Source of the DNA: Clostridiales bacterium
Lineage (GTDB): Bacteria > Bacillota > Clostridia > Peptostreptococcales > Anaerovoracaceae
Assembly: GCA_012735145.1 (NCBI GenBank)
Contig: JAAYIA010000024.1
Coordinates: 1 to 36,791, forward strand
Length of the DNA stretch: 36,791 nucleotides
Reading direction: 5' to 3'
Shown: piece after piece, positions 5,721 through 7,529 of the stretch
Numbering within the stretch: the first letter of the stretch is position 1
How the letters are laid out: every line of letters starts with the position of its first letter
Translations under genes and position numbers: made by a program
The notes under the pieces: generated by a model
Seen by the model: the letters and a program-made list of their open reading frames with translations, nothing else
What the model was told of the DNA's origin: nothing
Database searches by the model: none

Positions 5721-7529
5721 ATGATTAAAATTATCATTCTGATATGTTCAATTGTTTCTATATTATTTGCTCTTATGCTATCCGCATGGATACAGAGAAA
5801 AAGGACAATCGATAATGAGACTATAAAATTACTGTACAATATAATGCGAGACAGGTCTTCAGCATTTATCAAGTCTGAATATATAGCCTTGGCTGCATCC
5901 GCTGTTCCGGTTATATTATTGATTGCAGTGTATTCAAATTGGGTGGGATCAGTTTTTTTTGCTGCAGGAATAATTTTCTCCCTCCCAATCATTGTGCTTG
6001 GAATCGATGCTTCAAACAGGGGATCTCTTAAAGCTTCTTTGAAAGCAACAAAAAACGATATACCAGGTGCTCTTAGAGCATCCTTCAGAACCGGAAGTAT
6101 AATGGGTTTTTTAGTTTCCGGGTTTGGTCTTTTGTTTTTTTCTTTGATTTTTATTTTCTTCAAATATGCTTTTATAAATAAATACGTATTATATTATGCA
6201 TTTGGAGCTGTGTTTGTATCCTTATTTATCAGCGTCAGCGGCAGAACTTATTCCAAAGCTTCAAATTTATGCTCTGATGACGAATTCATCGATAATACAG
6301 GTGCAATTGCAGGTGCCGGGGCAGATTTCTATGCAGTTTTTGTATGCTCGATTGCAACTGCAATTTCTCTTGCAGATGTTGCAGTTAATACGGGAGGAGT
6401 AACCTCTACATTTACACAACTATCTTCGTCGATATTCCCAATGGTCGTTGCCGGTATGGGCATTCTCGCATCTATTATTGGATCACTATTCTACAAGGGC
6501 ACAAACAAAAAGAACAATGCTCGAGACATTACAATTGTCAATCTACTTAGTGGATTTCTTGTAATAATTGCTGCCGCATATTTTAGCAATGATTTGATGC
6601 AGTCGTATAGATATGCATATGCAGTTGGATCCGGCATTATAGCCGGTGTCCTTGCAGGCATTGTTACAGAGCAATATGCATATGATAACAATAAATTTAA
6701 GAAAACATATGATAAATTATCCGACGAGGAGGGTCAAGTACATCTCATAAGAGATTTTACTTTTGGAAGTCATTCAACAATTGCTATGACAATTGTTTTA
6801 TGCACAGCCCTTGTTGTAGCATACAATTTTGCAAATATTTACGGGGTTGCGCTTGCAGCTGTAGGTTTTGTATCCATATTCGGGACTTCTGCTTCTCCTG
6901 AAATATATTCATCGGTTTTAGCTAACCTATCAAATATCACAGAAGATTTGAAGTATGAAGAGGATGTATCGATCAAAATAATACTTGGACAAGCTGAAAA
7001 TAAAGTGTCAGCTGTAAGTAGAGGATATTCTCAAATATCGATGAGCCTTACAGGGATCTCAGCTCTTCTTCTGTTTACATATTTAACAGATAAGTTGACG
7101 ATTGATTTTGTTACTCAACTCGTTATGGCTGGTATTTTTACTGGAGCTATGATTGCTTTTTTCTATACTTCGGTACTTACAAACTCTATTTTAAGAATTG
7201 CCAATTACGATACAGCTAAATCGGGCAATGCAGCTTGTTATGATCGAATTTCCGTCTCAATAAAAGGATTAATCATTACAGTGCTCTTCTCAACTGTAGG
7301 ACCCATTGCAATAGGGGTCCTCCTAGGCCTTAATTTCCTGATAGGAGTTCTTTTTGGCCTTCTAGTTGTAGGTATGTTATTGAATTCTTTAATAGCAAAT
7401 TCAGGACGCAATCTTCGTAATGCTTCAGGGATATCACTTAACACAATAATTAATGTAATGCTTATTGTTTCAGTAACATTTGCAGCTTTATTAATTAAAT
7501 TTGAAGGCCTGTTTACCCAGATAATTTAA
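5721..7529 (+). CDS. Degenerate membrane pyrophosphatase (M-PPase) family protein without catalytic loops
   Basis: Polytopic membrane protein of 602 residues with about 15-16 hydrophobic segments. It matches the H+/Na+-translocating pyrophosphatase family along its whole length: MRDRSSAFIKSEY (like the GAxAFLxxQY stretch), ALRASFRTGSIMGFLVSGFGLL, GRTYSKAS, MGILASIIGSLF, YGVALAAVGFVSIFG, GAMIAFFYTSVLTNSI and SGISLNTIINVMLIVS. However, every pyrophosphate/magnesium loop is lost. After GRTYSKA (about residue 174) the conserved DVGADLVGK...DDPRNP...DNVGDNVGD block is replaced by a short NLCSDDEFIDNTGAIAGAGAD. The middle TDAYGPIADNAGG-type segment lacks its acidic residues (about residues 388-402). 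The C-terminal loop with [10 protein letters not shown] is deleted, joining NSGRNLRNA directly to SGISLN (about 560-573). The reading frame is intact and starts after AGGGG. I infer a pseudoenzyme that cannot hydrolyse PPi. Its role is unknown; cotranscription with secG is likely. Confidence 0.8.
   Translation: MIKIIILICSIVSILFALMLSAWIQRKRTIDNETIKLLYNIMRDRSSAFIKSEYIALAASAVPVILLIAVYSNWVGSVFFAAGIIFSLPIIVLGIDASNRGSLKASLKATKNDIPGALRASFRTGSIMGFLVSGFGLLFFSLIFIFFKYAFINKYVLYYAFGAVFVSLFISVSGRTYSKASNLCSDDEFIDNTGAIAGAGADFYAVFVCSIATAISLADVAVNTGGVTSTFTQLSSSIFPMVVAGMGILASIIGSLFYKGTNKKNNARDITIVNLLSGFLVIIAAAYFSNDLMQSYRYAYAVGSGIIAGVLAGIVTEQYAYDNNKFKKTYDKLSDEEGQVHLIRDFTFGSHSTIAMTIVLCTALVVAYNFANIYGVALAAVGFVSIFGTSASPEIYSSVLANLSNITEDLKYEEDVSIKIILGQAENKVSAVSRGYSQISMSLTGISALLLFTYLTDKLTIDFVTQLVMAGIFTGAMIAFFYTSVLTNSILRIANYDTAKSGNAACYDRISVSIKGLIITVLFSTVGPIAIGVLLGLNFLIGVLFGLLVVGMLLNSLIANSGRNLRNASGISLNTIINVMLIVSVTFAALLIKFEGLFTQII

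Follow-up and report, generated by a model that had tools for sequence, protein, structure and literature searches.

A very probably inactive membrane pyrophosphatase homologue is maintained by purifying selection at its old locus in a genus of the Anaerovoracaceae

Membrane pyrophosphatases (M-PPases) are regarded as working primary pumps. The window analysed here, a 36,791-nucleotide stretch of DNA from a Clostridiales bacterium (GCA_012735145.1, contig JAAYIA010000024.1), carries at positions 5721–7529 an open reading frame, uninterrupted from ATG to stop, for a 602-amino-acid degenerate M-PPase homologue; this feature and all others located in the window below lie on the plus strand. According to an initial annotation, made from the sequence alone, the protein has lost three substrate and metal regions and is a catalytically dead homologue kept by selection for a new role. 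What is an M-PPase kept for when its catalytic site has gone?

Profile search, alignment and predicted fold bore out that the 602-residue protein belongs to the M-PPase superfamily. It matched PF03030 (2.1e-58, 198.9 bits against a cut-off of 29.7), with a score about one-fifth of that of the ordinary M-PPase in the same genome (933 bits, G000:C8:15625-17571). Twelve NCBIfam pyrophosphatase models were matched and the cut-off of none of them was reached; the best score was 234.6 bits, compared with a cut-off of 546 bits for the equivalog of functional M-PPases. The K+-dependent Na+-pumping enzyme of Thermotoga maritima (TmPPase, PDB 4AV3, PF03030) aligned with the window protein in two stretches, residues 6–176 and 187–568, and the H+-PPase of Vigna radiata (PDB 4A01), which is homologous over much of its length, from residue 76 onward. 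Structure prediction, suggested as a check in the initial annotation, was performed with AlphaFold2. Using 6 rows of the short family (relatives of about 600 residues from the same genus) and 14 canonical rows, the model had a pLDDT of 83, a pTM of 0.89 and 16 long helices. In a Foldseek search the first 36 PDB chains (all with E ≤ 0.001) were M-PPases, with TM scores by query of 0.84–0.91 (0.88–0.89 to 4av3 and up to 0.91 to other entries). The result was weaker with short rows only, since that model had a pLDDT of 61 and an unreliable C-terminal part, yet M-PPase chains still held the first 36 places with TM scores of 0.73–0.77. The 16-helix M-PPase arrangement is predicted to be retained in the window protein.

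For a map of the losses, the window protein and its short relatives were aligned with three canonical M-PPases. Vigna residue numbers were read off the alignment with the solved structures, and the catalytic roles are in part those that we take these residues to have. Four cytoplasmic segments, loops 5–6, 11–12, 13–14 and 15–16, are lost or replaced. Loop 5–6 is mostly gone; a remnant at 6258–6293 marks the junction of the DVGADLVGK...DDPRNPAVI deletion and ends in D191, the equivalent of Vigna D283, which is kept in all 33 full-length short members. Loop 11–12 has had its acidic stretch replaced rather than deleted, with PEIYSSVLANLSN in place of DAYGPVSDNAGG at 6897–6935 and loss of the D500 and D507 equivalents. 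Loop 13–14 (canonical EEVRRQF...KPDYARC) and loop 15–16 are deleted, with junctions at 7242–7247 and 7419–7424, respectively. The alignment confirmed the loss of the three regions named initially, but the fourth deletion, that of loop 13–14, had been overlooked. The loss of acidic residues is incomplete: the equivalents of Vigna D279, D283 and D294 remain as D187, D191 and D202. The acidic motif has not moved to another part of the window protein, which contains no [DE]xxx[DE]xxx[DE] anywhere.

Of 21 diagnostic positions, 11 have lost the canonical residue in every one of the 33 full-length short members. The equivalents of D253, D257, E268, D287, D507, K694, D723, D727, K730 and D731 were each found in 0 of 33, as was that of D500, and N534 in one. 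All 49 comparison rows (24 canonical sequences of the genus and family and 25 of a 705-residue type) keep these ten catalytic positions together with D500 and N534; their sole departure among the 21 positions is a gap at D279, presumably in L083, where the repeat is four residues short. The D...D...D motif occurs in 2 of the 33 short members compared with 49 of the 49 canonical and 705-residue-type M-PPases. For this tally, four cut or disrupted copies and those of G064 and G065 were left out of the short group, as were L094 (one X) and L128 (a long run of N) from the tally, and the copies of G060 and G013 formed groups of their own. In the available portion of PMC10897367, D6.43 and D16.39 are the aspartates that position the nucleophilic water. 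At their equivalents, D287 and D731, the window protein has an alanine and a deletion, and neither aspartate is present in any of the 33 short members. The window protein is almost certainly a catalytically dead M-PPase, and judging from these residues PPi-driven pumping by it is very unlikely.

Among the gate residues of the short members, D6.50 is present as D or E in 33 of 33, K16.50 in 29 and E6.53 in 26, and the full triad D6.50/E6.53/K16.50 in 26; R5.50 is found in six and N16.46 in two. Elsewhere in the funnel, D691 is D or E in 30 of 33 and K541 is K or R in 32. The window protein has D at 6.50, A at 6.53, C at 6.57, N at 16.50 and S at 5.50. The altered codons are those of S171 at the place of R5.50 (Vigna R242; 6231–6233), of A205 at the place of the gate glutamate E6.53, at the end of a segment that begins with the retained D202 of position 6.50 (6324–6335), and of N578 at the place of K16.50 (Vigna K742; 7452–7454). 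With A, N and S at positions 6.53, 16.50 and 5.50, the gate of the window protein is therefore lost as well. Compared with TmPPase, with which it shares sequence homology, the predicted 16-helix fold and D6.50, the window protein lacks the catalytic loops, most carboxylates, E6.53 and K16.50, and the short family lacks inner-ring conservation. Compared with the Vigna enzyme, the equivalents of D253, D257, E268, D287, D507, D727 and D731 are missing.

A degenerate M-PPase copy was found in 41 of the 47 genomes of the genus. Thirty-five copies are about 600 amino acids long, one is an intermediate (G060), one has 499 amino acids (G013), three are cut by a contig end (G029, G066, G001) and one is disrupted near codons 25–45 (G007). 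Complete frames make up 37 of the 41, and within the short clade, G028 aside, identity to the window protein is approximately 28–34%. The 499-residue form (L092:7159-8658) has kept R5.50, D6.50 and K16.50, and its D279–D287 segment is deleted. Restriction to this genome with signs of pseudogenization, a case that the initial annotation had considered, is excluded by the 41 carriers, of which one (G007) has a disrupted copy. Outside the genus, the short form was not detected among the matches listed for 393 genomes of the order (ranked by score) or among those listed at E ≤ 1e-60 in a phylum sample of 398; both searches covered samples, in which a degenerate form with a lower score, like the one in G013, may escape notice. 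All five named records of the genus are MAGs, entered as either Mogibacterium sp. or Clostridiales bacterium, and goat jejunum is the source of two; Mogibacterium is placed within the Anaerovoracaceae.

Of the 41 carriers of a degenerate copy, 36 encode a canonical-type M-PPase at another place in the genome. It is split over two frames in G012 (G012:C88) and G026 (G026:C203), by frameshift or assembly error, and over two contigs in G017 and G022. Because of the two frame-split copies, activity of the second M-PPase is an assumption. Four genomes of the genus (G005, G035, G032, G011) have a canonical-type M-PPase alone and two (G061, G020) have neither kind. The number of carriers without a canonical-type copy, five, compares with 6.0 expected from genome incompleteness. 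Among the 17 carriers that are at least 90% complete, G031 and G067 lack one, and the chance of at least two such absences from incompleteness is 0.30.

The order at 23 loci from 21 genomes is pgk and tpi upstream of the short gene and butyrate kinase, pheS and pheT downstream; pgk was present at all 23 loci, and each of the other four genes was found at 22. In the window these syntenic neighbours occupy 3263–5258 (pgk and tpi) and 7610–12245 (butyrate kinase, pheS and pheT). At L095 of G028, the closest relative of the window, no butyrate kinase lies between the M-PPase gene and pheS, the only such case among the 23 loci. A secG gene is located at 5455–5688, 32 bases upstream of the 602-codon frame; its start was set from the ribosome site, the mechanical ORF beginning at 5407. 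Upstream of secG, a promoter-like TTGACA-17-TATAGT at 5358–5386 is a consensus match only, of a kind found at 24 sites in the region versus 17.8 expected. A terminator-like stem-loop followed by a T run lies downstream of the M-PPase frame at 7572–7589. As a similar stem-loop was found at just 6 of 23 loci, a conserved terminator was rejected.

Canonical M-PPases occupy the same place after pgk and tpi in relatives (e.g. [Eubacterium] infirmum L126, L119, L120, L124) and, within the genus itself, in G005 and G035, with one additional gene of about 430 codons at some of these canonical loci. Since relatives hold a canonical M-PPase at this place, the degenerate gene is the resident gene: the M-PPase of the old locus degenerated in place at the ancestral site after pgk and tpi. 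The neighbourhood was inherited as well, because secG also adjoins ordinary M-PPases in related genera. It lies between tpi and the canonical gene in L119, L120, L124, L126, L132 and G005, and it adjoins a canonical M-PPase in L115; since ORFs below 80 or 70 amino acids are absent from the neighbour listing, other secG genes may have been missed. The association is therefore not specific to the degenerate form, and the initially suggested link to the Sec translocon, which is weak, was rejected as unsupported.

A tree including the short homologues, likewise proposed at the outset, placed the degenerate forms in one group with an SH-aLRT of 99 (54 of 77 rows). Grouping of the degenerate forms with the canonical enzymes of the locus was not rejected (p-AU 0.68). 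Their grouping with the active copies of G000, the genome of the window, and of G028 was marginally rejected (p-AU 0.041), which disfavours an origin as a duplicate of the genome's own active copy, a hypothesis put forward once a first tree was available. The second copies are of three kinds on the 77-row tree: the 705-residue type, to which most belong, a family type (G000, G028) and one near the locus type (G013); that of G060 was left unplaced. The 705-residue M-PPases (L038–L062; 10 of the 25 rows placed) group with sequences of Bacteroidota, Spirochaetota and Omnitrophota, away from the family's own. This grouping suggests a lateral gain of these second M-PPases in many members of the genus. 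In a species tree built from pgk, tpi, pheS and pheT, the species with a canonical locus stand together with G061 and Baileyella, apart from the bearers of the degenerate form, and a single origin of this form therefore fits. The species tree was built without Mobilibacterium and with fewer than four genes for [Eubacterium] infirmum, G032, G061, G030 and Baileyella. The position of the root is uncertain; long branches and partial outgroups limit the gene tree and the species tree alike.

The intermediate copy of G060 (L090:8345-10144) retains loop 13–14 with PDYKAC and the equivalents of D287 and D731, and its loop 5–6 is mutated. Most of loop 15–16 and the equivalents of D253, D257, E268, D279, D283, D507, N534 and D727 are missing, and SGVTSTF is already present. 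This copy is probably inactive as well, less certainly than the short forms because both water-positioning aspartates remain. Judging by its state, single residues of the site and loop 15–16 appear to have been lost before the other deletions took place, an order that we infer because G060 forms a separate branch.

To what extent selection still acts on the gene was seen from Nei–Gojobori dN/dS, another check named initially. Values of 0.048–0.209 were obtained for the short gene (10 of 12 pairs with finite dS) versus 0.003–0.083 for its neighbours, dS being saturated in most pairs; the three pairs with dS near 1 gave 0.063–0.085. In most pairs the short gene changes more rapidly than the majority of its neighbours, yet far from neutrally, with pN far below pS. 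Such values, together with 37 of 41 complete frames, three copies cut by contig ends and one disrupted, do not describe a pseudogene, in which frames would be disrupted and dN/dS would lie near 1. The window protein is an enzyme homologue that has lost its catalytic residues and is under purifying selection, as is typical of pseudoenzymes. The view that it is dead and kept by selection has thus held up, on account of 11 of 21 diagnostic residues gone from 33 of 33 members, in-frame losses that are shared, presence in 41 of 47 genomes and low dN/dS.

The constraint on the protein was compared between 23 canonical rows from mixed phyla and a subset of 20 of the 33 short rows, with shuffles that treat columns as independent and with inner-ring helix numbers and membrane sidedness that we take to be those of published M-PPase structures. 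In canonical enzymes mean column identity was 0.716 in the inner ring versus 0.504 outside (0 of 2000 shuffles as high); in the short family it was 0.379 versus 0.393 (1471 of 2000). The cytoplasmic and extracytoplasmic halves scored 0.646 versus 0.470 in canonical enzymes and 0.376 versus 0.405 in the short family (126 of 2000 shuffles as high). When loop 6–7 is set aside, the short extracytoplasmic half drops to 0.389, nearly level with the 0.376 of the cytoplasmic half. This extracytoplasmic loop, residues 217–232 with the motif (S/G)GVTSTF (6369–6416), is the most conserved 16-residue stretch of the short family, ranking 1 of 587 windows there and 542 of 587 in canonical enzymes. Seventy columns are conserved in at least 30 of the 33 short members, and 19 of them differ from the canonical consensus; some new invariants are cytoplasmic (D113, R515–G516). 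Inner helices 11 and 12 have lost most of their conservation. At the dimer face, helices 13, 15 and 10 of the short family reach 0.37, 0.37 and 0.45 versus 0.39, so that only helix 10 is slightly above. Purifying selection persists and its centre has moved off the inner ring and the cytoplasmic half, with loop 6–7 now the most conserved part. The description of the sequence as well kept is accurate for the frame and, by prediction, for the fold, but not for the core, where conservation has collapsed.

Because constraint now seems to centre on the outer face, above all on loop 6–7, a binding or structural role is suggested, and we regard it as an even call whether the protein is an M-PPase pseudoenzyme kept for such a role on the outer face. 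An M-PPase from another source would have taken over PPi-driven pumping, by lateral gain in most species and by the genome's own duplication in one. The old protein would then neither hydrolyse PPi nor pump, and its membrane barrel, perhaps still a dimer, might present the conserved outer face to an external partner as a scaffold or regulator. It is the pattern of conservation that suggests a role on the outer face. Among the roles suggested initially, a scaffold would agree best with these data. A pure scaffold is opposed by the gate triad, kept in 26 of 33 short members, which is more than a scaffold needs, and the outer-face role by the cytoplasmic invariants D113 and R515–G516 and by the slightness of the extracytoplasmic excess. 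With the hydrolytic head gone and gate and channel remaining, the protein could instead form a motor-less ion pathway, i.e. a Na+ or H+ channel, a leak valve or a carrier. Position 6.50 is acidic in all 33 members, E6.53 is found in 26 and K16.50 in 29, and loss of loops 5–6, 13–14 and 15–16 would open the cytoplasmic funnel to the gate. According to the available part of PMC10897367, E6.53 occurs in K+-dependent Na+ pumps and also in Na+,H+ and K+-independent H+ pumps. However, the 77-row tree shows at least three lineages with loss of the gate, among them those of the window protein and of G028 (E to A, K to N), whereas loop 6–7 persists; moreover, the channel-forming inner ring has no excess conservation, and R5.50 and N16.46 are left in six and two of 33 members. 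We therefore consider an ion pathway rather unlikely, though the next best account, and the channel proposed in the initial annotation is weakened for the window protein in particular, in which E6.53, K16.50 and R5.50 are lost. Retained funnel residues might also serve an enzyme or carrier for another ligand, since the equivalents of D283 (33 of 33), D691 (D or E, 30 of 33) and K541 (K or R, 32 of 33) are kept in the short members. With R in place of D691 in the window protein and most conservation gone from helices 11 and 12, such a function appears scarcely probable.

The degenerate protein could also be a regulatory or transport-only subunit in a heterodimer with the active M-PPase, similar to a prozyme. 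In the accessible parts of PMC9408878 and PMC10897367, M-PPases are dimers with unequal subunits, an asymmetry that is thus already published, and PMC9408878 describes a Mechanism III with hydrolysis and transport in different subunits. A canonical-type M-PPase was found in 36 of 41 carriers. Its absence from the others was rejected as evidence against heterodimers, being too weak at five absences versus 6.0 expected, and mixed dimers keep a small chance because the absences are no more than incompleteness explains. On the other hand, the partner would have to be of three different kinds (705-residue type, family type in G000 and G028, near-locus type in G013), G031 and G067 lack a canonical-type copy at completeness of at least 90%, and dimer-face helices 13 and 15 are not above average and helix 10 only slightly so, which makes the heterodimer improbable. 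Slow decay of a gene made redundant by the arrival of a second M-PPase would agree with faster evolution than most neighbours, with the 499-residue form of G013 and with the disrupted copy of G007, itself possibly an assembly error. It is hard to reconcile with 37 of 41 open frames at identities of about 28–34%, with pN far below pS, and with 70 columns conserved in at least 30 of 33 members, 19 of them changed from the canonical consensus; we give it very little credence. A more far-reaching and tentative account, which we hold to be possible although doubtful, combines stepwise loss of the motor at its own locus and takeover by another M-PPase, in most species probably gained laterally, with a remnant that would be a novel type of membrane component, acting either as the transport-only subunit of a mixed dimer or as an outward-facing receptor or scaffold whose ligand would touch loop 6–7.

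Dead enzyme paralogues are already known as a kind. The trypanosome AdoMetDC prozyme and deoxyhypusine synthase paralogue are likewise dead copies beside active ones (PMC5201418, PMC3663545, as far as their available text goes); these are, however, soluble metabolic enzymes whose dead copy is reported to activate its partner, whereas the M-PPase is a membrane pump. Inactive metallopeptidase homologues are pseudoenzymes too, retained for binding, with an unrelated fold and reaction (PMC11266112, available text). A catalytically dead M-PPase family was not found among the matches listed in the open-access literature, and the case appears to be new in that we found no report of it there. In the accessible part of PMC3198990, paralogues were removed before its M-PPase tree was built. 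The genus offers a natural series from the intact pump (G005, G035) through the intermediate (G060) to motor-less forms with or without the gate, which allows testing which parts of the barrel conduct, dimerize or bind without the motor. According to the available parts of PMC9408878 and PMC10897367, the coupling of PPi hydrolysis to ion transport and the reason for the unequal behaviour of the two subunits are still under dispute. Mixed dimers, if they exist, would realize in nature the published division of labour between a hydrolysing and a transporting subunit (PMC9408878, same portion). In gut Anaerovoracaceae, a PF03030 match is not in every case evidence of PPi-driven energy conservation.

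Full-length M-PPases with an altered site also follow the pgk–tpi pair in another genus of the family, g32, at L093:4459-6516 (G175) and L094:3996-6056 (G353). Their site residues read ADKVGKSVGGV (L093) and ADNVGKSVGGV (L094) compared with the expected ADNVGDNVGDV. They stand apart from the short family on the tree and therefore represent a second, separate degeneration. A canonical M-PPase of 874 bits is present elsewhere in G175; none was found in G353. At L091:7345-9408 (G242), the sole M-PPase found in that genome is otherwise canonical, with the DNVGDNVGD repeat four residues short and reading ADNVGDVAG. Pyruvate phosphate dikinase is a PPi-handling enzyme, and a putative gene for it, named from its first residues, adjoins the canonical M-PPase of the window's genome (L202:9806-12436).
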